Source: an uncultured Butyrivibrio sp. (lineage in GTDB: Bacteria; Bacillota; Clostridia; Lachnospirales; Lachnospiraceae). Taken from it: DNA of 10,383 bases. Location: positions 1-10,383 of the forward strand of contig CAMVRW010000057.1 of assembly GCA_947169985.1 (NCBI GenBank), written 5' to 3'. A program made the position numbers and the translations under genes. The first letter of the stretch is position 1; the number at the start of each line of letters is the position of its first letter. This document shows positions 1 through 10,383 of the stretch, one piece after another. Under the pieces are notes generated by a model. That model was not told where the DNA came from. It worked only from the letters and a program-made list of their open reading frames with translations, and did no database searches.

Positions 1-1
1 T

Positions 2-55
2 GTTGAGAAGATCCACATCTTCGACAAAGAGACAGAGCAGACAATCACAAACTAA
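2..55 (+). CDS. C-terminal end of upstream gene, probably sugar ABC transporter ATPase (MsmX/UgpC type), partial
   Basis: Only the last 17 codons and the stop are in the window. The open frame reads VEKIHIFDKETEQTITN and ends in TAA, immediately followed by an in-frame-independent TAG. A tail of the form KIHxFDxETE plus a few residues is typical of the C-terminal regulatory (TOBE/MOP-like) domain of MsmX/UgpC/MalK-type ATPases, which energise carbohydrate ABC importers and often serve several importers at once. The fragment is followed within 15 bases by an intrinsic terminator, as expected for the end of a transcription unit. The identification rests on a very short stretch and is tentative; the catalytic part lies outside the window. 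Confidence 0.55.
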   Translation, partial: VEKIHIFDKETEQTITN

Positions 56-67
56 TAGTGATACTTC

Positions 68-98
68 AAGAGCTGCGCACTTTGCGCAGCTCTTTTTT
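68..98 (+). terminator. Intrinsic terminator of the upstream gene
   Basis: A 12-bp perfect stem (AAGAGCTGCGCA at 68-79 pairing with TGCGCAGCTCTT at 83-94) with a three-base loop runs directly into six T residues at 93-98. It sits 13 bases after the upstream stop codon and before the promoter of the regulator gene. Confidence 0.93.
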
Positions 99-101
99 GC
101 G

Positions 102-110
102 TGTTATACT
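102..110 (+). promoter_or_regulatory. Extended -10 promoter for the PucR/CdaR-type regulator
   Basis: TATACT at 105-110 is preceded by TGT at 102-104, giving an extended -10 element. The best -35 at 17-bp spacing is TTGCGC (82-87), a weak match that lies within the 3' half of the preceding terminator stem. Transcription would start near 117, leaving a leader of about 28 bases with the ribosome site AAAGGGG at 132-138, six bases before the ATG. Confidence 0.6.
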
Positions 111-144
111 CGAATAGAGAGGTTTTCACTGAAAGGGGTAAACT

Positions 145-1233
145 ATGATTTCTTCACAGACCATAAAAACAAGTATTGAAGAACTTGGCGCTATTACTAA
201 GGTGGAGCTTTGTGTGCTGAATCTTAGCGGAGAAGTAGTTGCATCCACCAGTGAGAAAGATTTTTTGGATGTCTCCATAATTACCAGTTTTGCAAATTCA
301 CCTGTGGATTCTCAGGTAATAGGCGATGTTCACCTCTTTAAGGTATTGGATGATACAGAGCCCTTATATGTACTTCTGGCAAAGGGCGACTCTGAGCATG
401 CTTACATGGTTGGAAAAATTGGAGTAAGTCAATTGCAGGCCCTGATTACGGCCTACAAGGAGAAGTTTGACCGAAATAATTTCTTCCAGAATCTTTTGCT
501 GGATAACATGCTCCTTATTGATGTATACAACAGGGCGAGAAAGCTTAAGATAGAGGTTAATGCTCCAAGAGTAATAATCCTTGTGGAAGTGGGAAATGCA
601 AAAGACAATACTGCCCAGGAGCTTCTTGGAGGAATGTTTGGTGCCCACTCCGGCGACTTTGTCACAGCTGTGGATGAGAACAGTGTTATTCTGATCAAGA
701 CCCTGTCCAAGATCCAGACTTACGATGAAGTGCAAAAGATTGCTACTACCATTGTGGATATGATGAACACAGAGGCGATGCTTAACGTAAGGGTATCTTA
801 CGGTGGAATCGTCTATGAGCTTAAGGACCTTAGCAAATCTTTTAAGGAAGCCAAAATGGCTCTGGAGGTTGGACGCATTTTTTATGCAGAGAAGATGGTC
901 AATGCCTACAATACTCTTGGGATTGGAAGACTTATCTATCAGCTTCCTGAGAGCCTTTGCCGTATCTTCATCGAGGAGATATTTGCAGGAAAAGAAATCC
1001 CTGATGACCTTGATGAGGAAACCCTTGGCACCATCAATAAGTTCTTTGAGAATAATCTGAATGTATCAGAGACCTCAAGGCAGCTCTTTGTTCACAGAAA
1101 TACTCTTGTGTACAGGATTGAGAAACTGGAAAAGAGCTGTGGACTTGATGTAAGGAAATTCGATGATGCCTTGACCTTCAAGATTGCTATGATGGTTATC
1201 AATTATATGAAGTATTTGGAGAATTCCAGATAA
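145..1233 (+). CDS. PucR/CdaR family transcriptional regulator
   Basis: A 362-residue DNA-binding regulator of the PucR/CdaR (sugar-diacid/purine regulator) type. The clearest evidence is the C-terminal helix-turn-helix block at about residues 300-352, with NLNVSETSRQLFVHRNTLVYR and then EKLEKSCGLD and a DDALTFKIAMM helix, the signature of the PucR C-terminal HTH domain. Residues about 135-255 fit the GGDEF-like middle domain of this family, including the SYGGIV strand and the FKEAKMALEVGR helix. The first 130 residues look like an N-terminal sensory region, but I cannot assign its ligand. The start is supported by AAAGGGG six bases upstream. It is a single-gene unit between a terminator and the convergent SRP RNA. 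In this family the ligand and target genes vary (sugar diacids, purines, amino acids), so the regulon is unknown; targets could be nearby or remote. Confidence 0.88.
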   Translation: MISSQTIKTSIEELGAITKVELCVLNLSGEVVASTSEKDFLDVSIITSFANSPVDSQVIGDVHLFKVLDDTEPLYVLLAKGDSEHAYMVGKIGVSQLQALITAYKEKFDRNNFFQNLLLDNMLLIDVYNRARKLKIEVNAPRVIILVEVGNAKDNTAQELLGGMFGAHSGDFVTAVDENSVILIKTLSKIQTYDEVQKIATTIVDMMNTEAMLNVRVSYGGIVYELKDLSKSFKEAKMALEVGRIFYAEKMVNAYNTLGIGRLIYQLPESLCRIFIEEIFAGKEIPDDLDEETLGTINKFFENNLNVSETSRQLFVHRNTLVYRIEKLEKSCGLDVRKFDDALTFKIAMMVINYMKYLENSR

Positions 1234-1246
1234 ATAGAAGAAACGC

Positions 1247-1430
1247 AAAAGCGGTTCTGTAAAGGATGCATGCACGTTGACTCCCGGAAAAGAACAGGCA
1301 ACCTTACAACACATGGAAGGTTCTACTTAGTGCTGCTTCGTTCCCGACCTGACACGGTTCGCAGATTTCCATTGCATAAGACCCGGTCTCACACGAAAGG
1401 ACTGCTACATACACCCTTTACAAAACCGCT
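1247..1430 (-). ncRNA. ffs: Signal recognition particle RNA (4.5S/scRNA)
   Basis: The RNA component of the signal recognition particle, which binds Ffh and targets membrane and secreted proteins during translation. On the minus strand, complementary to 1332-1353, the sequence reads GTCAGGTC, GGGAAC, GAAGCAGC: the conserved SRP helix 8 with its GGAA tetraloop and asymmetric internal loop, followed by the usual ACTAAG. The 5' end (from 1430, AGCGGTTTTGTAAAGG...) pairs with the 3' end (about 1250-1273) in a helix of roughly 24 bp containing four G-U wobbles, the long helix 5. Further arms pair inside (for example ATGGAA with TTCCAT). A strong promoter places the 5' end at about 1430. The closing helix is followed by TTTT, so the RNA is about 180-185 nt. 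It lies beside tadA, as the SRP RNA gene also does in Bacillus subtilis, but here divergently. Confidence 0.93.
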
Positions 1431-1435
1431 CTATT

Positions 1436-1464
1436 ACTATACTTATTTTTTATTATTATGTCAA
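1436..1464 (-). promoter_or_regulatory. Strong sigma-A-type promoter for the SRP RNA
   Basis: On the minus strand a perfect -35 TTGACA (1464-1459), a 17-bp spacer and the -10 TATAGT (1441-1436) predict transcription starting about 1430, exactly where the closing helix of the SRP RNA begins. The -35 box covers the second and third bases of the tadA start codon, so the promoter extends into the tadA coding sequence. Confidence 0.9.
1438..1443 (+). promoter_or_regulatory. Possible -10 element for tadA and the following operon
   Basis: TATACT at 1438-1443 on the plus strand overlaps the SRP RNA -10 on the other strand. A weak -35-like TTTACA lies at 1417-1422 with a short 15-bp spacer. If used, transcription would begin about 1450, only about eight bases before the tadA ATG, leaving no room for a Shine-Dalgarno site. 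No better + strand promoter was seen between the regulator and tadA. Confidence 0.4.
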
Positions 1465-1979
1465 ATAACACTTTATCAGAAGAAGAAAAGAACGATATCA
1501 AATATATGAAGGCAGCCCTTGCCCAGGCCCGTAAGGCTTATAAACTGGGAGAGGTGCCTATTGGCTGCGTCATTGTATATGAGGACAAGATAATAGGCCG
1601 TGGGTATAATAGGAGAAATACAGATAAAACGCCTCTGGCTCATGCTGAAATTACAGCAATAAAGAGGGCCGGAAAGGTAATGAAGGACTGGCGACTTGAG
1701 GGCTGCAAGCTGTATGTGACCCTGGAACCCTGCCAGATGTGTTCCGGCGCTATAGTTCAGGCCAGAATACCAGAGGTCATTATGGCGGCTGAAAATCCTA
1801 AGGCTGGATGCGCAGGGTCAGTTATGGATATTTTGAACAACCCGGAGTTTAACCATCAGGTAAGTGTAAAGAAGGGTGTTCTTAAAGAAGAGAGCAGTGC
1901 TCTTTTAAAAAAATTTTTTCTGGAACTGAGAGCAAGGAATAAAGCTGAAAAAGAGCAGAAAGGTAAAGCCTGTGAGTAA
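1458..1979 (+). CDS. tadA: tRNA-specific adenosine deaminase TadA
   Basis: Deaminates adenosine-34 of tRNA-Arg(ACG) to inosine so that one tRNA reads several arginine codons; a cytoplasmic zinc enzyme. The 173-residue protein has the full cytidine/deoxycytidylate deaminase signature: HAE at residues 62-64 (zinc His and proton-shuttle Glu) and PCQMC at 91-95 (two zinc Cys). TadA-specific features are GEVPIGCVIV (31-40), the WRLEGCKLYVTLEP strand, and FNHQVSVKKGVLKEE followed by a FFLELR helix. Length fits the family. The ATG at 1458 has no recognisable ribosome site. The next in-frame ATG (1506, residue 17) would remove the short leader before YMKAAL that homologues possess, so 1458 is preferred; a leaderless or near-leaderless message is possible. 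It is the first gene of the long + strand run and overlaps the next gene by 8 bases. Confidence 0.95.
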   Translation: MSNNTLSEEEKNDIKYMKAALAQARKAYKLGEVPIGCVIVYEDKIIGRGYNRRNTDKTPLAHAEITAIKRAGKVMKDWRLEGCKLYVTLEPCQMCSGAIVQARIPEVIMAAENPKAGCAGSVMDILNNPEFNHQVSVKKGVLKEESSALLKKFFLELRARNKAEKEQKGKACE

Positions 1980-3519
1980 GAGAATTGTTTCAATTCTGCT
2001 CGTTCTGTTCATGCTTATGACTATCGTTGCATGCGGAAAGGGCGAAAACAGGGGATATCAAAAGAACAAGGCAGCCAGTCAGATAGACTTTAGCCAGAAA
2101 CCGGTCACAATTACCTATCTGACTATCGGAGATAAGCCAGTCAATGGCCGCACTGAGGAAGTGATTGAACAGCTCAATAAGATCCTGATCAAACGCCTCA
2201 ATGCCAGGCTGGATATTTATTACGTGGGATGGAATGACTATCTTCAGAATTATGACAGGACACTGGAAAATCCCAATGCAGGAATTGACCTTGTGGGAAC
2301 CGGAACAGATTGGCTGGATGCCTGGCCAAATGTCATCAATGGCAATTTTCTGCCGCTTACTGAGGAAATGATCAGAGAGTACTGTCCGGAAACATTTGCT
2401 AATGTTCCGAAGACTACCTGGAAGAAATGTTCCTATGATGGTAGTATTTATTTTCTACCGGAAAATGAGTATACCCAGTGGACGAACCACGGATTCATCT
2501 ATAGAACAGATATTGCCAAGGAGGCCGGTCTTTCCGAGGTTAAAAGCTGGGATGACCTGGATAAATACTTCGAGTGTGTGATCAAAAATCACTCGGAGAT
2601 GACTCCCTGGGATTTTGCTGGAGATAGCGGAGTTCCTGCCCTTGGATATATTATGTCTTCAATGAAGTATGTGCCTATATATGAGGTGACAACCTATGGA
2701 CTTTGGGGTGAGGATTCAAATAACAAGGGTAAGATAATATCTCCTTTTTATATGGGAGATGAATTTGTTGAGTATGCAAGACTGATGAAGAAGTGGAATC
2801 AGATGGGTGTTTGGAGAAGCAACGTTTCCACTGCTGAGGATAATACTGAGGAGTTCTATGCAGGAACATCCTCTGTGGCACAGCACCATACTCAGAATTT
2901 CTTTACCTCTATAAAACCCGCCATGAGGGTAAAAAATCCTGATGTTGGCGTTAAGTTTTACTGGTTTGGCAAGGAAAGCGGAAATCTTATGAGGCTCAGC
3001 GACCTTCATGGAGCCATGGCAATTTCTGCCTACTCCCAAAATCCTGAGAGAGCACTTATGGTCTATGATATGCTCAGAAATGATGAGGAATGTTACAGGC
3101 TGCTCCGGTATGGGATAGAGGGAATTCAGTATACTGTCACTGATAGCGGAATGATGGAAAAACCAAGTGGTTATAATGAAGCCAAGGATGGAATAGTGAC
3201 TAACTTCTGGTGGGGCAGGCGTGATGTACTTGAGATTCCGGATTCAGCTAATTCATGGGATGATTATTATGAGCTGGTTGGAAGCTATGAACATGTAGCA
3301 ATAGATTATCCCTGGGATGGTGTTCCATTCTCAACTCCACAGATCAATGCACAGCTTTCAGAGATAACAGCAATTTGCGATAAATATATACCACTTATCT
3401 CAACTGGTCAGTATGATAAAAAACCGGAGGATATGGTGGCTGAGTTCAGGAACGAGCTAATGAAGGCGGGCTTTGAACGAATAACAGGACAGCTACAAAG
3501 GATTTATAATGCACAGTAA
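1972..3519 (+). CDS. Extracellular solute-binding lipoprotein, DUF3502-type (family 1 sugar-binding related)
   Basis: A surface-anchored substrate-binding protein of the carbohydrate ABC-importer class, 515 residues. It starts with GTG inside the end of tadA, with AGAAAGG (1957-1963) eight bases upstream. Residues 1-20 are a lipoprotein signal peptide (KR, then a hydrophobic core) ending in the lipobox IVAC, so Cys21 is the probable lipid-modified residue. The mature start VTITYLTIGD, the DYLQNYDRTLENPNAGIDLVGTGTDW region and the SWDDLDKYFECV segment fit extracellular solute-binding folds. The C-terminal part (about 445-515: FSTPQINAQLSEITAI, then PLISTGQYD, then a FRNELMKAGFERI helix) resembles the DUF3502 domain found in LipO-like binding proteins. 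No permease or ATPase gene adjoins it. The gene overlaps the GH9-like lipoprotein gene by 11 bases, suggesting coupled translation. The ligand is not known; an oligosaccharide is an inference. Confidence 0.85.
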   Translation: MSKRIVSILLVLFMLMTIVACGKGENRGYQKNKAASQIDFSQKPVTITYLTIGDKPVNGRTEEVIEQLNKILIKRLNARLDIYYVGWNDYLQNYDRTLENPNAGIDLVGTGTDWLDAWPNVINGNFLPLTEEMIREYCPETFANVPKTTWKKCSYDGSIYFLPENEYTQWTNHGFIYRTDIAKEAGLSEVKSWDDLDKYFECVIKNHSEMTPWDFAGDSGVPALGYIMSSMKYVPIYEVTTYGLWGEDSNNKGKIISPFYMGDEFVEYARLMKKWNQMGVWRSNVSTAEDNTEEFYAGTSSVAQHHTQNFFTSIKPAMRVKNPDVGVKFYWFGKESGNLMRLSDLHGAMAISAYSQNPERALMVYDMLRNDEECYRLLRYGIEGIQYTVTDSGMMEKPSGYNEAKDGIVTNFWWGRRDVLEIPDSANSWDDYYELVGSYEHVAIDYPWDGVPFSTPQINAQLSEITAICDKYIPLISTGQYDKKPEDMVAEFRNELMKAGFERITGQLQRIYNAQ

Positions 3520-5053
3520 TTTAAGTCTTTTTATAAAAAAGAACAAGAACAGGATATGGGCACTGGGGTTGACAATACCCATCATTGGAAGCGCTGCAGG
3601 ATGTGGCGCTTCTTCTGCTGAATTACCTCAGGAGAGCCCGGAGAAGATATTAAGCTCTGAGGAGGTGAAGCTCTCCTATGAAGCACCTACTCAGATTCCG
3701 AGGATACTTATAGATCAGGTGGGCTATGACATTGATTCTGAGAAAGCGGTAGTTTTCAGTGAAGAAGGCCTTTCTGGAAATTTCTATGTCTGCGAACTGG
3801 AGACAGGAATCCCTGTGTACACAGGAACTATTCTTAAAGGGCAGGGACATTTTACAGATTTAAAGGAAGAGGGAAGCTACTATATTTATACTGATGAAGT
3901 GGGAGAGTCCTACTCTTTTTCCATAAAAGAAGACATATATGGTGAGGTGTTTAACAGGGCTTGCAAAAAATACTACATAAATCGGTGTGGACTTGCCTTG
4001 TCGGAAAATTACGCCTGGGAAAATGCCCACAGCGCCTGCCATACCACCATGGCAAAGCTACAGGAAGACCCTGACACCCAGATTGATGTGTCAGGAGGAT
4101 GGCACATGGACGAACAGGCAAGAAGAGACACCAAGCTTGGAAGCAGGATCGCAGAAAACCTTTTGCTTGCCTATGAGATGAATCCGGATTCTTTTTCTGA
4201 TGAAAGTGGGATTCCGGAAAGTGGCAATGGGATTCCTGATATCCTTGATGAAGTCAGATATGAGGTTGAATGGCTTCTTAAGATGCAGGATGCAAAGACC
4301 GGAGGAGAGTACGGTGCGGCAGTCACTGACTCAACAAATGGAGCAGATCTTTTTACTGCGCCTGTATTTGTGACTCCCACTGATCTTGAGGCGACAGTTT
4401 CTTTTGCAGCGGCGGCAGCCAGATTCAGTTACATCTATCAGCAGTATGATGCTGAATTTGCCACCACTTGTCTAAAAGCAGCAGACAGGGCCTGGACCTG
4501 TTATCTGAACAACCAGAAACCTATAGAAAACACTGCGTCCTTTGAGGCAGCAGCACAGCTCTACAGGGCAACCGGAGCAGATAATTATCATCAGGTCCTG
4601 GAGCAGTTCTTTGAAAAAAGCGACTTTGACAGCCTTTTTAATACGGATGAGAATATTTTCATGGGTGGCGTGACTTATCTATCCATTAATAAGGCAGTAG
4701 ATGTGGAAAGATGCACAGCTCTCATGAAGCTACTGATGAAAAGATCGGAACAGATTGCATCTGAGGCCTCCAAATCGCCATATCTGGTGACTGATGCAGA
4801 TAGTAGTGGCAGGTTTGACCGGATGCTGGATGATATGCGCTGCCTTACAATAACGGACCATATCATCTATAACCATGAGTACACCACCATAATTGAGAAT
4901 TGTGCTCATTTTCTTATGGGGATGAACCCGGATGCCATAAACTTCGTCACTGATGATACTGAGAGAACCTATGAAACAGCAGGGACTACCGGAGTTCTTG
5001 GAGACCCTGAGAGTGACGCGCTTTTCATATTTATGTTAAGTGTGATAATATAA
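3509..5053 (+). CDS. GH9-like lipoprotein lacking catalytic residues (probable pseudoenzyme)
   Basis: A 514-residue exported protein related to family 9 glycoside hydrolases (endoglucanases). Residues 13-32 form a signal peptide with a lipobox-like SAAGC, so Cys32 would be the lipid anchor. Residues about 62-140 match the N-terminal Ig-like (CelD_N) domain, with RILIDQVGYD at 65-74. Residues about 145-514 match the GH9 (alpha/alpha)6 barrel: DVSGGWH (193-199), then LLLAYE, IPESGNGIPDILDEVRYEVEWLLKMQD (starting at 235) and FLMGMNPDAINFVT (468-481). The key catalytic motif is broken: where GH9 enzymes have GGWHDAGD, this protein has GGWHMDEQ. The C-terminal His-rich motif after the NP..xFVT strand and the catalytic Glu (NE) segment are absent, and the protein ends after one final hydrophobic helix. 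The reading frame is intact, so this looks like an evolved non-catalytic protein. It is probably a surface glycan-binding partner of the lipoprotein encoded just upstream. Confidence 0.82.
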   Translation: MHSNLSLFIKKNKNRIWALGLTIPIIGSAAGCGASSAELPQESPEKILSSEEVKLSYEAPTQIPRILIDQVGYDIDSEKAVVFSEEGLSGNFYVCELETGIPVYTGTILKGQGHFTDLKEEGSYYIYTDEVGESYSFSIKEDIYGEVFNRACKKYYINRCGLALSENYAWENAHSACHTTMAKLQEDPDTQIDVSGGWHMDEQARRDTKLGSRIAENLLLAYEMNPDSFSDESGIPESGNGIPDILDEVRYEVEWLLKMQDAKTGGEYGAAVTDSTNGADLFTAPVFVTPTDLEATVSFAAAAARFSYIYQQYDAEFATTCLKAADRAWTCYLNNQKPIENTASFEAAAQLYRATGADNYHQVLEQFFEKSDFDSLFNTDENIFMGGVTYLSINKAVDVERCTALMKLLMKRSEQIASEASKSPYLVTDADSSGRFDRMLDDMRCLTITDHIIYNHEYTTIIENCAHFLMGMNPDAINFVTDDTERTYETAGTTGVLGDPESDALFIFMLSVII

Positions 5054-5061
5054 ATTGGATT

Positions 5062-5856
5062 ATGAAGACTACTATTAATGGATTAAATATAAACTACATA
5101 GACGAGGGGCAGGGACAGCTCCTGGTTTTGCTTCACGGCTGGGGTTCCAACATAGAGCTCTTTTCCGGGATAATTAATTTCGTAAAGAGTAAGTACCACG
5201 TGGTAGCTATGGATATGCCAGGCTTTGGAAAGAGCGATGAGCCACTTGAGCCCATGAATGTTGATGACTACGTGAACTTTGTCCTTGAGTTCGTAAAAGA
5301 GCTGTATCCTCAGGAGAAGGAGATTATTTTCCTTGGTCATTCCATGGGTGGAAGGATCATTATAAAGCTTGCTTCCGGTATTCATGATGGAAGGATCAAG
5401 GCTTGCTTTACTATCCCCAAGGTAATCCTTACGGATGCCGCCGGGGTGCTTCCTGTAAAGACTGAGGCGCAAAAGAAACGCACCAGGAGATATAAATTCT
5501 ACAAGAATCTTCTTACTAAGACTGGAATTGCCAAGGCTTTTCCTGGAAGTTTGGACAAGCTTCAAAAGAAATTCGGAAGTGCGGACTATGCAGCAGCTTC
5601 GCCTGTTATGAGACAATCTCTTGTTAAGGTTGTAAACGAGGATCTTGTACCATACATGAAGTCTGTGACTATGCCGGCTCTTTTGATCTGGGGCGATAAG
5701 GACACAGCAACTCCTCTTTCAGATGGACAGACAATGGAAAGAGAGATGCCTGAGGCTGGCCTTGCAGTAATAAACGGCGTGGGGCATTATTCATTCCTTG
5801 AGAATCCATATCTTTACAACAAGATTTTGGGAAGCTTTTTGGGAATAAGTATCTGA
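5062..5856 (+). CDS. Alpha/beta hydrolase fold protein
   Basis: A 264-residue soluble serine hydrolase of the alpha/beta fold with no signal peptide. The oxyanion-hole HG lies in LLHGWGSN (23-30). The nucleophile elbow is GHSMGG (92-97, Ser94). The acid is probably Asp214 in LLIWGDKDTATP, and the base is His242 in VGHYSFLENP, so the triad is complete. A cap region of about 70 residues (130-200) is rich in Lys and Arg (KKRTRRYKFYK). The start matches the usual first beta strand of the family, although the ribosome site is poor (only a GGA close to the ATG); it follows the GH9-like gene by 8 bases and may depend on coupled translation. The substrate cannot be told from the fold. Its position directly before a Mur ligase and Ddl suggests a cell-envelope role, perhaps cleaving an ester or amide there. 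Confidence 0.85.
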   Translation: MKTTINGLNINYIDEGQGQLLVLLHGWGSNIELFSGIINFVKSKYHVVAMDMPGFGKSDEPLEPMNVDDYVNFVLEFVKELYPQEKEIIFLGHSMGGRIIIKLASGIHDGRIKACFTIPKVILTDAAGVLPVKTEAQKKRTRRYKFYKNLLTKTGIAKAFPGSLDKLQKKFGSADYAAASPVMRQSLVKVVNEDLVPYMKSVTMPALLIWGDKDTATPLSDGQTMEREMPEAGLAVINGVGHYSFLENPYLYNKILGSFLGISI

Positions 5857-5867
5857 GGTAATAGATT

Positions 5868-7520
5868 ATGTTTTTGATTTCAGCTTTTGTATTGATAATA
5901 CCTGTACTATGTCTGGCTTTTCTGGGACTGCGGTTTTATACCCATATGCTTCAGCTCTCCAGCTACCAGTTTCAGGGATATTTCAGGTTCATGAAGACTA
6001 ACTGGAAGAGAGTGTTGTTCCATATTCTCTTCCTTATATTTTTTGTATTGGTGTTCTTTGGCACGGGCTTTAATTCCATGGCGTTGCCGATAGTAATGCT
6101 GCTGGCAATACTGGGAATCTTCGTCGGCCTTATCATCTCCTACCTTCCAAGGGAGGCCAAGAAAAAGTTTGTGGTAACTGACAGGGTAAAGAGACTTTTT
6201 ATCACTTACGTTATCCTGACAGTCCTTATTTTTGCCCTGGGATGTCTTGGCGTTAGAGTGACCCAGGTTGGGCTTAATGAATATGGTGATGTGCTGTTTG
6301 CCGTGGGACTTATCATGGGAGCTGTAATTTATGTAACAGTGCTTCCTTTTATTCCTGCTCTGGCAAATCTTATCAACAAGCCAATAGAAAACCGCATCAA
6401 TCAGGGCTTTATTGATGACGCAGTAAGGATACTGAAGGAACATGAAAACCTTCGTATCATCGGAATAACCGGAAGCTATGGAAAGACCAGCGTAAAGTAT
6501 TATCTGACAACGCTTTTGTCTGAGGGCTTCAGAGTACTTATGACCCCCGAGAGTTACAACACTCCCATGGGTATCGTAAGGACCATAAGGGAGCACATGC
6601 AGCCTACTCACGAGGTGTTTGTCTGCGAGATGGGCGCCCGTCACCTTCATGATATAAAAGAGATCACGGATTTTGTTCATCCTGATGACGGAATCGTGAC
6701 ATCTATCGGATATCAGCACCTTGAGACCTTCCATTCTCTGGAGAATATCATCAGCACCAAGTATGAACTTCTTGATGCAGTAGATGCAAAAGAGAAAGCT
6801 GAGGGTGGAAAGGTTCCTGGCAAACATCTTAAGTTTGTTAACGGTGACAACGAGATCATCAGGAAAAATATGAAATATCCTGATGCAATAACCTATGGCC
6901 TTTCTGAAGGCTGCGACTATAGAGCTACAGATATCAAGGTTACCGGCGCAGGAACTACCTTTACCGTTACTTCAAAGACGGGAGAGAGCGGCGAGTTTAA
7001 CACAAAGCTTGTGGGAAGACACAATGTTGAGAATATCGTAGGTGCCATTGCTGCAGCAAACAGCCTTGGAATCCCAATGACCAAACTCAGGATGGCAGTA
7101 AGGAGGCTCCAGAGCGTTCCTCACAGACTTGAGCTTGTTAAGCACGGCAATGTTTCTATCCTTGATGATGCATATAACTCTAACCCCAATGGTGCCAAGG
7201 TGGCCCTTGAGACCCTGGCTCTTTTTGAGGACAGCGTTAAGATCCTTGTTACTCCCGGAATGGTTGAGCTTGGAGAGAAGGAAGATGAGTACAACAATGA
7301 CTTCGGAGCTCAGGCAGCAGGAGTCTGTGATTATATAATCCTGGTAGGAGATAAGAACAGTGCTTCCATTAAGAAAGGCGTTGAGGAAGCCGGATTTGAC
7401 CCGGAGAAGCTCTTTGTAAAGAGCACCTTTACGGAAGCTTCCAAGCTTATGTATGAACTTGACGCAGGCAGAGAAAAGGTTATACTTTTAGAGAACGATC
7501 TGCCCGACAATTATAAGTAA
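5868..7520 (+). CDS. Membrane-anchored Mur ligase, MurF-like
   Basis: An ATP-dependent amide ligase of the Mur family, closest in motifs to MurF, which adds D-Ala-D-Ala to a peptidoglycan stem peptide. The 550-residue protein begins with about five predicted membrane helices (roughly 3-22, 47-66, 72-92, 108-127, 141-168). The Mur central domain follows: P-loop TGSYGKTS (201-208), ESYNTPMG (228-235), EMGARHLHDI (254-263), a TKYELL segment (297-302) where the carbamylated Lys is expected (Lys298), GRHNVEN (383-389), and the C-terminal domain with DDAYNSNP (433-440). The C-terminal end LLENDLPDNYK is intact. From P-loop to end it is about as long as in ordinary MurF, but the uridine-binding N-terminal domain is missing and replaced by the membrane part. 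The start has GAGG nine bases upstream, overlapping the hydrolase stop. Together with ddl 31 bases downstream it forms a D-Ala-D-Ala making and adding pair. Whether it is the housekeeping MurF or a paralogue cannot be decided here. Confidence 0.85.
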   Translation: MFLISAFVLIIPVLCLAFLGLRFYTHMLQLSSYQFQGYFRFMKTNWKRVLFHILFLIFFVLVFFGTGFNSMALPIVMLLAILGIFVGLIISYLPREAKKKFVVTDRVKRLFITYVILTVLIFALGCLGVRVTQVGLNEYGDVLFAVGLIMGAVIYVTVLPFIPALANLINKPIENRINQGFIDDAVRILKEHENLRIIGITGSYGKTSVKYYLTTLLSEGFRVLMTPESYNTPMGIVRTIREHMQPTHEVFVCEMGARHLHDIKEITDFVHPDDGIVTSIGYQHLETFHSLENIISTKYELLDAVDAKEKAEGGKVPGKHLKFVNGDNEIIRKNMKYPDAITYGLSEGCDYRATDIKVTGAGTTFTVTSKTGESGEFNTKLVGRHNVENIVGAIAAANSLGIPMTKLRMAVRRLQSVPHRLELVKHGNVSILDDAYNSNPNGAKVALETLALFEDSVKILVTPGMVELGEKEDEYNNDFGAQAAGVCDYIILVGDKNSASIKKGVEEAGFDPEKLFVKSTFTEASKLMYELDAGREKVILLENDLPDNYK

Positions 7521-7551
7521 GATATTTGCAGACCGGTGAAAGAAGGTTTTT

Positions 7552-8757
7552 ATGAAGCTGAAAGTAGCAGTATTATTTGGCGGAAAAAGTACAGAGCATG
7601 AGATCTCAATCATCTCAGCAATACAGGCAATTGGTTACATCAACAAGGAAAAGTATGATGTGATACCTGTTTACATCACAAAGAACAACGATTTTTATGT
7701 AGGTGATGCAGTGGGAAATATTGAGGAGTACACTCACATTCCTGAACTTCTCAAAAAGAGCACACAGGTTATATGGGTTAAGGAGGGTGATAGAGTATCC
7801 CTTGTAAGATACCCAATGAAGAAGTTTGGTAACAATGTGATCACACAGGTAGATATCGCATTCCCTATCGTTCACGGAACAAATGTTGAGGACGGAACTT
7901 TACAGGGATACCTGGCTACAATGGGGCTTCCTGTTGTGGGCTGTGATGTTCTCTCATCTGCTGTCGGAATGAATAAATACGTAATGAAGACAGTCCTTAA
8001 GGACAATGATATACCTGTTCTTGACTGCAAGTGCTATACCTGGAAAGACTATGAGGATGTGGATGGTCTTGTTGCAAAGATCGAGAAAGCCTTCACCTAT
8101 CCTGTTATCATAAAGCCTTTAAACCTTGGTTCCAGTATCGGTATCAAGCTTGCAAAGGACAGAGATGAGCTTTTGGAAGCCCTTGATCTTGGATTTGAAT
8201 TCTCCAAGAAGATACTTGTAGAAAGAGCTATCACTAACCTTAAGGAGATCAACTGCTCAGTACTTGGCGACTATGAGTCAGCCCAGGCTTCTGAGTGTGA
8301 GGAGCCAGTTAACTCTGACGAGATCCTCAGCTTTGAAGATAAGTATATCGGTGGAGCAAAGGGCGGCGCTAAGGGTGCTAAGACCGGAGGCAGCAAGGGA
8401 ATGGCTTCTCTTAAGAGAAAGATTCCTGCTGAGATCTCTTCCGAGATGAGAGACAAGATCAGAAAGATGGCAGTTGATGCATTTATTTGCCTTGGCTGCA
8501 GCGGTGTATCTAGAATTGATTTCATGATCGATAAGGACACCAATGAAGTATACTTAAACGAGATCAACACTATTCCCGGATCCCTTTCCTTCTATCTTTG
8601 GGAGCCACTGGGAATGAAGTATGAGACTCTTTTGGATAACATGATAGAACTGACCCTTAAGGCTGACAGAGAGAACCACAAGGTGGTTTATTCCTTCGAG
8701 ACCAACGTCCTTGAAGGCGTTAAGCTTGGAGGCGGAAGCAAGGGCAGCAAGATGTAA
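7552..8757 (+). CDS. ddl: D-alanine--D-alanine ligase
   Basis: Joins two D-alanines with ATP to make the dipeptide used in peptidoglycan precursors; cytoplasmic ATP-grasp enzyme. The 401-residue protein shows LFGGKSTEHEIS (8-19), HGTNVEDGTLQGYL (108-121), KPLNLGSSIGI (188-198), SRIDFM (320-325, with the active-site Arg) and the metal-binding E-x-N in NEINTIPGS (336-344). The EDKY residues at 262-265 give the Lys-Tyr pair found in D-Ala-D-Ala ligases in place of the His of VanA-type D-lactate ligases, so normal D-Ala-D-Ala specificity is expected. A Gly/Lys-rich stretch (267-283) sits in the omega-loop region, and a similar short tail (GGGSKGSKM) ends the protein, making it longer than typical Ddl enzymes of about 310-370 residues. 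AGAAGG lies five bases before the ATG. It is the last gene of the run, followed by a terminator. Confidence 0.95.
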   Translation: MKLKVAVLFGGKSTEHEISIISAIQAIGYINKEKYDVIPVYITKNNDFYVGDAVGNIEEYTHIPELLKKSTQVIWVKEGDRVSLVRYPMKKFGNNVITQVDIAFPIVHGTNVEDGTLQGYLATMGLPVVGCDVLSSAVGMNKYVMKTVLKDNDIPVLDCKCYTWKDYEDVDGLVAKIEKAFTYPVIIKPLNLGSSIGIKLAKDRDELLEALDLGFEFSKKILVERAITNLKEINCSVLGDYESAQASECEEPVNSDEILSFEDKYIGGAKGGAKGAKTGGSKGMASLKRKIPAEISSEMRDKIRKMAVDAFICLGCSGVSRIDFMIDKDTNEVYLNEINTIPGSLSFYLWEPLGMKYETLLDNMIELTLKADRENHKVVYSFETNVLEGVKLGGGSKGSKM

Positions 8758-8762
8758 AAAAT

Positions 8763-8808
8763 AAGCCGCTACGTATCATATCAGTGTGATGCGTAACGGC
8801 TTTTGTTT
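8763..8808. terminator. Bidirectional intrinsic terminator between ddl and plsC
   Basis: A 16-bp imperfect stem (AAGCCGCTACGTATCA at 8763-8778 with TGATGCGTAACGGCTT at 8787-8802; one C-A mismatch and one G-T wobble) has an eight-base loop. On + it is followed by TTTTGTTT, on - by TTATTTTTTAC. It begins five bases after the ddl stop codon and lies just beyond the end of the convergent acyltransferase gene, so it can end both transcripts. Confidence 0.9.
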
Positions 8809-8835
8809 AGGGTAATTTACTTTGGAAGGCGTATG

Positions 8836-9573
8836 TCACAAAGACATGGCCTGGTTTTTGAGGTAGATTTCCTCGATGATATTCTTTACATATCCATCGA
8901 TGTTCTTCTGATCTTCCTTTGAAAGCTCGCTCATGATTATGGGCTTGCCATATTCGATCACAACCTTGGTGCTGCGGATGAATGGAACATGCTTTTCAAG
9001 GATTTCATCTGAGTGGTTCATTACAACAGGAATGATGGGACATCCTGACTTCTGGGCAATCTTGAAGCTTCCCTTATGGAACTCTCCCAAAGGCTGGTCT
9101 GTCTTATTTCGGGTTCCTTCAGGGTAAATGAAGATGGAGATACCGTTTTTGACTTTATCTATGGCAGTAAGGACCATTTCAAGGCCTTTTCTGAGATCCT
9201 TTCTGTCCAGGAACAAGCAATCAAGGTAGATCATCCAGATGTTAAGGAGCGGAACCTTTAAGACTTCTTTCTTGGAAATAAATCCTGTTGGACCCGGAAC
9301 TCTTGGGTAAGCAATGACAATATCGAAAATGCTTCTGTGGTTTCCTACGTAAAGAACAGCCTGATCCTTTGGAACATTTTCCTCGCCGATGACGGTGCGC
9401 TTAACGCCGCTGATGAAAGAAACTACATTAAATGCCCAACCGACAACTGCTAGGGATACTTTCTTCTTAACCATGGGATTGAACTTTCCGATGATCAAGA
9501 GCACTCCCTGTAATGGCAGACTTAGTATCAGAAATATTGCAACAAACAAAACTGCAAGAATAGTTCGTATCAT
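8836..9573 (-). CDS. plsC: 1-acyl-sn-glycerol-3-phosphate acyltransferase (PlsC family)
   Basis: Transfers an acyl chain to lysophosphatidic acid to make phosphatidic acid, the second acylation in phospholipid synthesis, at the cytoplasmic membrane face. The 245-residue protein has an N-terminal hydrophobic helix (about 4-28). It carries the four acyltransferase motifs: NHRSIFD (78-84, catalytic His79 and Asp84), FLDRKD (121-126), YPEGTRNK (150-157) and IPVV (181-184). Length fits the PlsC family. The start is supported by AGGAGA nine bases upstream (9588-9583 on this strand). It is transcribed towards ddl and divergently from pyrC. Family members can prefer other acyl acceptors, so the exact acceptor is inferred. 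Confidence 0.92.
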   Translation of the reverse strand: MIRTILAVLFVAIFLILSLPLQGVLLIIGKFNPMVKKKVSLAVVGWAFNVVSFISGVKRTVIGEENVPKDQAVLYVGNHRSIFDIVIAYPRVPGPTGFISKKEVLKVPLLNIWMIYLDCLFLDRKDLRKGLEMVLTAIDKVKNGISIFIYPEGTRNKTDQPLGEFHKGSFKIAQKSGCPIIPVVMNHSDEILEKHVPFIRSTKVVIEYGKPIIMSELSKEDQKNIDGYVKNIIEEIYLKNQAMSL

Positions 9574-9709
9574 AATGATGAATCTCCTGTTTCCAAAAAT
9601 CTTAGACTATTTTCTCATAGTTGCAGGGCTAAATCAACAAAAGCTGTGGTGTGAGCCAAAGGTTTTATGATAAAGTAAATTTGAACCTTAAGGATGGGAG
9701 CTTGTAAGA
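9574..9709. promoter_or_regulatory. Divergent plsC/pyrC intergenic region
   Basis: This 136-base region must hold the start signals for both flanking genes. For pyrC a -10-like TATGAT lies at 9666-9671 without a good -35. The short palindrome CCTTAAGG (9686-9693) lies just before the ribosome site GGGAG (9696-9700). For plsC no convincing -10/-35 pair was found. No clear attenuator or PyrR-type leader structure was recognised. Confidence 0.35.
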
Positions 9710-10383
9710 ATGATAATAATAAAGAATGGAAGGCTGATGGACCCTGCTACGGGGACTGAGGGCCTTTACGACATTTTAATAGACGGTGACAAGATCGCCA
9801 GTATCGGGCTTTGCGGAAGCCTGGATGAGATGGCGAAGGAAGCTGCGTCCATGAAGCTCATGGAGGGCGTGGAGTCCGAATCTATTACAGAGATAGATGC
9901 CACCGGATGTGTAGTTGCTCCGGGACTTGTTGATGGTCATGTTCACTTTAGAGATCCTGGATTTACCTACAAAGAGGATATTGAAAGCGGCGCCAGGGCA
10001 GCAGCCAGAGGTGGTTTTACCAGTGTGATAATGATGGGAAACACCAATCCCCATATGGATAACGTGAATACCATTAAGGATGTGCTTGATCGTGGAGGCA
10101 AGACCGGAATAAAAATCTACGCTTGCGGAAATGTCACCATGGGCATGTCGGGAAAAGAGCTTACTCCCATGGAAGAGCTTATAGAAGCGGGAGCAGTTCT
10201 TTTCACTGATGACGGAAAACCCCTGATGGATGAAAACCTGATGGAGAAGGCCTGTGAGGAAGCTGTTAGACTTGAACAGGTCATAAGCCTTCACGAGGAG
10301 GATCCGGCGGTAATAACAGACAATGGCATAAATGCCGGGGAAGTGGCAGAGGCCATGGGGCTTAAGGGCTCTCCAAGAGAAGC
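9710..10383 (+). CDS. pyrC: Dihydroorotase, N-terminal part (runs off the window)
   Basis: Cyclises carbamoyl-aspartate to dihydroorotate, the third step of pyrimidine synthesis; a cytoplasmic zinc amidohydrolase. The 224 codons in the window run without a stop. They show the amidohydrolase start (MIIIKNGRLMDPATG), APGLVDGHVHFRDPG (70-84, metal His77 and His79), SGARAAARGGFTSV (93-106), the MGNTNP substrate loop (109-114), FTDDG (165-169) and LHEED (194-198), all in the order seen in class I (PyrC/AllB-like) dihydroorotases. HVHFRDPG and MGNTNP favour dihydroorotase over allantoinase. The ATG is supported by GGGAG (9696-9700), nine bases upstream. Between the second beta strand and the DATG motif there is an extended, charged segment (about residues 35-60) that is longer than usual. 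The C-terminal half is outside the window. Confidence 0.92.
   Translation, partial: MIIIKNGRLMDPATGTEGLYDILIDGDKIASIGLCGSLDEMAKEAASMKLMEGVESESITEIDATGCVVAPGLVDGHVHFRDPGFTYKEDIESGARAAARGGFTSVIMMGNTNPHMDNVNTIKDVLDRGGKTGIKIYACGNVTMGMSGKELTPMEELIEAGAVLFTDDGKPLMDENLMEKACEEAVRLEQVISLHEEDPAVITDNGINAGEVAEAMGLKGSPRE

Follow-up and report, generated by a model that had tools for sequence, protein, structure and literature searches.

A gene on contig CAMVRW010000057.1 of an uncultured Butyrivibrio sp., analysed here over positions 1 to 10,383 (10,383 nucleotides; hereafter the window), encodes a protein of 514 amino acids that keeps the sequence signature and predicted fold of glycoside hydrolase family 9 (GH9) and has lost the catalytic residues of that family. 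We refer to it as pseudo-GH9. That the protein is catalytically dead, not decaying, and lipid-anchored is well supported at the level of sequence: orthologues occur throughout the genus and are under purifying selection, and relatives in other genera carry the same loss. In the reading that we favour, tentatively and with a probability of just under one half (about 0.48), pseudo-GH9 would be a GH9-derived pseudoenzyme exapted as a non-catalytic lipoprotein of the cell envelope. The gene and the parts of its product are as follows.

3509..5053, forward strand: pseudo-GH9 lipoprotein gene, 514 amino acids (open reading frame; PF00759 and CelD_N matches; orthologues)
3509..3604, forward strand: lipoprotein signal peptide with lipobox Cys32 at its end (sequence; aligned Cys column)
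3698..3904, forward strand: immunoglobulin-like (Ig-like; CelD_N) domain, residues 64-132 (PF02927, E 1.6e-08)
3929..5050, forward strand: (alpha/alpha)6 GH9-type barrel, residues 141-514
3986..3988, forward strand: Cys160, which with Cys177, His178 and His199 makes up the four presumed zinc ligands
4037..4042, forward strand: Cys177-His178, presumed zinc ligands
4094..4117, forward strand: GGWHMDEQ where canonical enzymes have GGWHDAGD, with other residues at both catalytic Asp positions
4943..5050, forward strand: shortened C-terminus, with the HHR...NE loop deleted and the last barrel helix (residues 500-513) retained

The open reading frame at 3509-5053, whose start, frame, lipobox and GH9 motifs were as the initial annotation had described them, matched the Pfam GH9 profile PF00759 with 108.8 bits against a cut-off of 27.7 (E 5.3e-31), over profile positions 1-376 of 444. 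With a match over most of the profile and an Ig-like domain followed by the barrel, it belongs to the GH9 sequence and fold family. The structures predicted for pseudo-GH9 proteins were complete GH9 folds, resembling in their combination of Ig-like domain and (alpha/alpha)6 barrel the GH9 enzymes Clostridium thermocellum CelD (1clc), A. acidocaldarius Cel9A (3ez8) and a metagenome endoglucanase (3x17). The window protein shares with these enzymes also the GGWH motif, a Cys-Cys-His-His set and the NP strand; unlike them, it has neither the two catalytic Asp nor the HHR and Asn-Glu (acid) segments, and several invariant Trp residues are gone. In the initial annotation the protein stopped shortly past the NP strand. 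Although the HHR...NE loop is deleted, the AlphaFold2 model retains the closing helix of the barrel at residues 500-513.

The loss of the catalytic site was assessed in an alignment of 45 pseudo-type proteins and 23 canonical GH9s, all taken from the same searches. Possession of DAG[DE] and NE was what the canonical rows were chosen for, and their count of 23/23 at these positions therefore holds by construction; HHR played no part in the choice. Four of the 37 members from other genera (L109, L110, L117 and L118, none with GGWH) were excluded from the alignment counts, from the tree and from the second profile described below. The first Asp of GGWHDAGD aligns to Met200 and the second to Gln203, and Asp occurs at the first catalytic column in none and at the second in one of the 45 pseudo rows. 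The Asn-Glu pair that holds the general-acid Glu is a gap in 45/45. The HHR segment, present in 23/23 canonical rows, is likewise deleted, with at most 1/45 pseudo rows keeping the residue at any of its columns; the exact HHR string is missing also from four canonical proteins of the cellodextrinase type (547-552 amino acids). The motif losses that had been read from the single sequence, of both Asp and of the His and Glu segments, were thus borne out by the alignment.

As an unselected check, we read the motifs in all 146 distinct GH9-like open reading frames of at least 300 amino acids in the fetched loci. DAG[DE] was present in 30, 27 of which also had NE and 26 also HHR; the remaining 116 had none of the three, and intermediates were not seen among the 146. 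The 120 nearest proteins all contain GGWH, followed by M (89), L (30) or I (1); none has HHR, and none has NE[VI] within its last 60 residues. With the Asp pair, the HHR segment and the general-acid Glu gone, together with Trp residues kept by canonical enzymes (see below), the protein ought to be incapable of GH9 hydrolysis; the loss of GH9 catalysis is well supported, about as firmly as a sequence allows.

Missing catalytic motifs, taken alone, could also mark a local pseudogene undergoing decay, or an artefact of assembly. Such an origin can practically be dismissed. The frame is intact, and a protein 98% identical exists in Butyrivibrio sp. AE2032, which makes an assembly artefact unlikely. 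Some match was found in 61/61 Butyrivibrio genomes and a strong orthologue (E 1.6e-84 or better) in 60/61, the exception being a genome that is 64% complete (G031); the best match in the range of the canonical paralogues had an E value of 3.5e-50. In 49 distinct Butyrivibrio genes, GGWH is followed by M, L or T in 47 and by D in none. The ratio of nonsynonymous to synonymous substitution rates (dN/dS) was 0.05-0.10 in nine orthologue pairs, compared with 0.085 for a canonical pair; one of the nine, the pair of the window gene and L004, was saturated (dS 2.7). Together with the same loss in other genera, these values point to a pseudoenzyme under purifying selection, in agreement with the earlier judgement that decay was unlikely.

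Many residues that canonical barrels keep are lost as well. Among 43 polar or aromatic barrel residues shared by at least 22 of the 23 canonical rows, 28 are lost in the GGWH-bearing pseudo rows, including four Trp columns (569, 664, 734 and 863; 0/20 each) that we take to line the substrate cleft. The 15 that are retained lie mostly in the RCG/CH/GGWH and IPES...LDE stretches. The two Cys and two His that we presume to be the zinc ligands, by analogy with the site of CelD-type enzymes, are present in the window protein and kept in these rows (Cys160 20/20, Cys177 19/20, His178 20/20, His199 20/20). GGWH itself is absent from 25/45 sampled pseudo rows, and His199 aligns to a gap in 17/45. The motif is also missing from two of the 49 Butyrivibrio genes (L039 and L048, genomes G007 and G043), a sign that the zinc/motif region may have been lost more than once. 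A further residue, Cys402 (codon 4712-4714), is specific to the pseudo-type proteins, in 41/45 pseudo rows and 62/62 near orthologues, and with the often-present Cys321 may form a disulfide or a ligand site in the exported protein.

These patterns bear on two alternatives. The first, suggested by the initial annotation and in our view unlikely, holds that the protein captures or senses glycans at the surface, its dead cleft or Ig-like domain binding beta-1,4 oligosaccharides and handing them to the adjacent solute-binding protein or signalling. The cleft lends this no support, given the loss of the Trp columns and of most polar and aromatic residues invariant in canonical barrels, and of GGWH in many members. 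The second, which we consider improbable, is a GH9-fold enzyme with rebuilt acid/base residues (e.g. Asp201, Asp207 or Glu457), perhaps acting on a cell-wall glycan. Conservation in 62 near orthologues would agree with it (Asp201 in 55, Arg206 in 61, Asp207 in 59 and Glu457-Tyr458 in 62), as would the occurrence of the same barrel, at lower Z, in cellobiose 2-epimerases and in GH88, GH105 and GH76. However, Asp201 is replaced by Asn in 6/62 and by Gly in 1/62 of these orthologues, its aligned column is gapped in 16/45 wider-family rows, and Glu457 is the sole acid that stands out as pseudo-specific, with no clear partner acid for Asp201 as a catalytic base displaced by one residue.

A lipid anchor is likewise predicted. 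The window protein has lipobox Cys32, and the aligned column is Cys in 45/45 pseudo rows, as against 2/23 canonical rows, in line with the earlier assignment as a lipoprotein. A loose lipobox regular expression was uninformative (43/45 pseudo and 17/23 canonical rows) and was dropped in favour of the aligned column. One full-length Butyrivibrio member (L044:2581-4113, genome G017) has an N-terminus resembling an ordinary secretion signal, without a lipobox Cys, and the anchor is therefore not universal. Six of the nine invariant columns in the pseudo rows fall at residues 72-137, in the Ig-like region.

Shorter relatives in other Lachnospiraceae genera were found with a profile of the Butyrivibrio members, and a second profile (A2) was built from 45 members. 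Searched with A2, 299 genomes of the family, roughly one for each genus, yielded at least 39 with a pseudo-GH9 member, membership being judged by match extent and frame length, with a sequence check in the fetched loci. In 344 genomes of the order, matches outside the family were canonical-looking in extent, motifs being read in fetched loci only. All 45 pseudo rows and all 23 canonical rows fell on opposite sides of one branch of the tree (Shimodaira-Hasegawa-like approximate likelihood ratio test, 99). The tree had no formal outgroup; L150, from another family of the order, lay on the canonical side. This clean split would fit a single origin of pseudo-GH9, provided that the root lies on the canonical side. 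The window genome, which is 67% complete, has one more GH9 match, on another contig (G000:C164), which is canonical and keeps GGWHDAGD and NE. This protein and the 552-residue type of B. hungatei (L232, not in the tree) belong to the same Pfam family, with 28-42% identity over the shared part, and differ in their kept catalytic motifs, their loci and their side of the tree.

Pseudo-GH9 belongs to one Lachnospiraceae lineage, and its genes usually lie near those for the D-Ala-D-Ala ligase Ddl and for MurF. The neighbouring genes in the window are listed here.

1972..3519, forward strand: extracellular solute-binding lipoprotein (SBP_bac_8/DUF3502), overlapping the start of pseudo-GH9 by 11 nucleotides (Pfam)
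5062..5856, forward strand: alpha/beta hydrolase, the next gene downstream (Pfam)
5868..7520, forward strand: MurF-like ligase with an N-terminal membrane-like region (PF08245 and PF02875; hydrophobic windows)
7552..8757, forward strand: D-Ala-D-Ala ligase, Ddl (PF01820 and PF07478)

The last gene of the window is an amidohydrolase by Pfam and presumably PyrC. The alpha/beta hydrolase was the next gene in 55/55 named Butyrivibrio loci having downstream sequence. Genes for the MurF-like ligase and Ddl lay within five genes downstream in 54/55 Butyrivibrio loci and in 28/37 loci of other genera; 35/37 of the latter had either this pair or a PlsC-like acyltransferase within that distance. None of the three types of gene was found within five downstream genes of three canonical GH9 control loci. 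The linked Ddl is the sole PF07478 match over 100 bits in the incomplete genome of the window. The same holds for two near-complete genomes of the genus, G060 and G054 (153.7 and 156.1 bits; next best 43.9 and 41.4), and G091 has one strong Ddl. Each of the two near-complete genomes has five Mur-type ligases, with the linked MurF-like protein among them, and the linked pair there are therefore probably housekeeping peptidoglycan genes; judging by how many ligases there are and how large each is, we infer that the linked one is the only MurF. The MurF-like ligase of the window is extended at its N-terminus by about 190 residues, in which five windows of 19 residues are hydrophobic. It gave no hit to the Pfam Mur_ligase N-domain and is possibly membrane-anchored.

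Upstream genes are variable: TadA-SBP-aconitase or GlgP-aconitase in Butyrivibrio (SBP, solute-binding protein), and SpoIID, an M23 peptidase, an amidohydrolase or an unknown protein in other genera. Glycogen phosphorylase and aconitase-like neighbours were rejected as functional partners, being present in part of the loci only and members of common metabolic families. A conserved protein of about 390-440 amino acids lies directly upstream of pseudo-GH9 in 8/37 loci of other genera, or nine with one on the opposite strand; its copy L098:4245-5441 has no Pfam match. The solute-binding protein gene, of the DUF3502 type, is directly upstream in the window and near pseudo-GH9 in most Butyrivibrio loci, as glycan capture would have it, usually with an aconitase-like gene in between that is missing in the window and in L176-L179. 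Against a role in capture, the window's solute-binding protein has no BLAST match among the pseudo-GH9 neighbours in other genera, and no permease gene was recognised in the window. The neighbours met most often suggest the synthesis of peptidoglycan precursors more than a locus for glycan utilisation.

Three things lead us to prefer the envelope role to that of a beta-glucan receptor: Trp residues kept by canonical enzymes have gone, many members do without the motif segment, and the genes most often found nearby serve the production of peptidoglycan precursors. As a non-catalytic envelope protein, pseudo-GH9 would act at the outer face of the membrane, where its conserved Ig-like domain and C-terminal helical face might bind a partner, or a glycan of the cell wall, while the wall grows or is repaired. 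A fuller scenario, which we hold to be doubtful, is that catalysis was lost once in an ancestral lachnospire and that the protein was recruited as a peptidoglycan-linked envelope lipoprotein reading or spacing the wall's beta-1,4 glycans, or a partner in wall synthesis, close to the cell's own Ddl and MurF genes; the cleft would then have eroded genus by genus, with the Ig-like domain under selection.

Several observations weigh against the envelope role. In G082, G323 and G147 the linked Ddl is not the sole one, as another match over 100 bits lies elsewhere and scores higher; in G041 there are two strong Ddl matches, neither at the pseudo-GH9 locus, with Ddl/MurF about 0.11 Mb away. These additional Ddl genes, in several genomes that do not belong to the main Butyrivibrio group, lowered our estimate slightly, to the value given above. 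The Ddl/MurF pair is missing from 9/37 loci outside the genus, and the gap between pseudo-GH9 and the hydrolase gene, with a median of 72 bases, can be as long as 605. The linkage to Ddl/MurF might be a gene order that was inherited and carries no function, conserved order alone being no proof of a shared function. The lipobox is not universal, since the first 75 residues of L044, L109 and the fragment L118 contain no Cys. The C-terminal region (residues 437-478) is not conserved more strongly than it is in canonical rows (0.36 vs 0.37). Finally, another GH9-like match was present in 18/39 pseudo-bearing and 38/260 other genomes (counts read by eye from the search table; Fisher p 2e-5, uncorrected for kinship), an enrichment that would fit a plant-glycan role. 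By the same table, however, 21 of these at least 39 pseudo-bearing genomes have no other GH9-like match, which speaks against glycan capture.

Expression in B. hungatei also favours a link to carbohydrates. B. hungatei DSM 14810 (L198), which we take to be strain JK615T, has two GH9-like genes, a canonical one of 552 amino acids (L232) and a pseudo-GH9 of 524. According to the available text of the genome paper, JK615T and strain MB2003 have identical sets of carbohydrate-active enzyme (CAZyme) genes and neither degrades cellulose; that text lists cel9B, of 552 amino acids, as the sole GH9 and does not mention cel9A (PMC5716241). As cel9B matches L232 and leaves the 524-residue protein, cel9A of MB2003 is probably pseudo-GH9, by elimination. 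In the accessible part of the expression study, cel9A (bhn_I2653, GH9/CelD, called an endo-1,4-beta-glucanase) is the CAZyme gene with the strongest up-regulation in monoculture on xylan (log2 5.36), in a design that compares monoculture with coculture and not xylan with another sugar (PMC6344614). If cel9A is pseudo-GH9, this too counts against the envelope role, and the expression of this probable orthologue keeps a carbohydrate-related role open.

Pseudo-glycosidases in general keep a glycosidase fold after loss of activity and serve a non-enzymatic role, heparanase-2 being an example. The chitinase-like YKL-40 is another, and both derive from other GH families. We found no description of a GH9 pseudoenzyme family in the literature searched. 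Several members carry the source label 'glycoside hydrolase family 9 protein' or 'endoglucanase', and tallies of GH9 may therefore suggest a greater capacity for cellulolysis in Lachnospiraceae than there is; if cel9A is pseudo-GH9, the top xylan-monoculture 'endoglucanase' of that expression study (PMC6344614) would lack a GH9 active site. If the envelope role is true, a degradative fold would have been turned into a conserved part of the envelope, with several stages of motif loss present in living genera, and the family would be a good system for studying the change from enzyme to non-enzyme.

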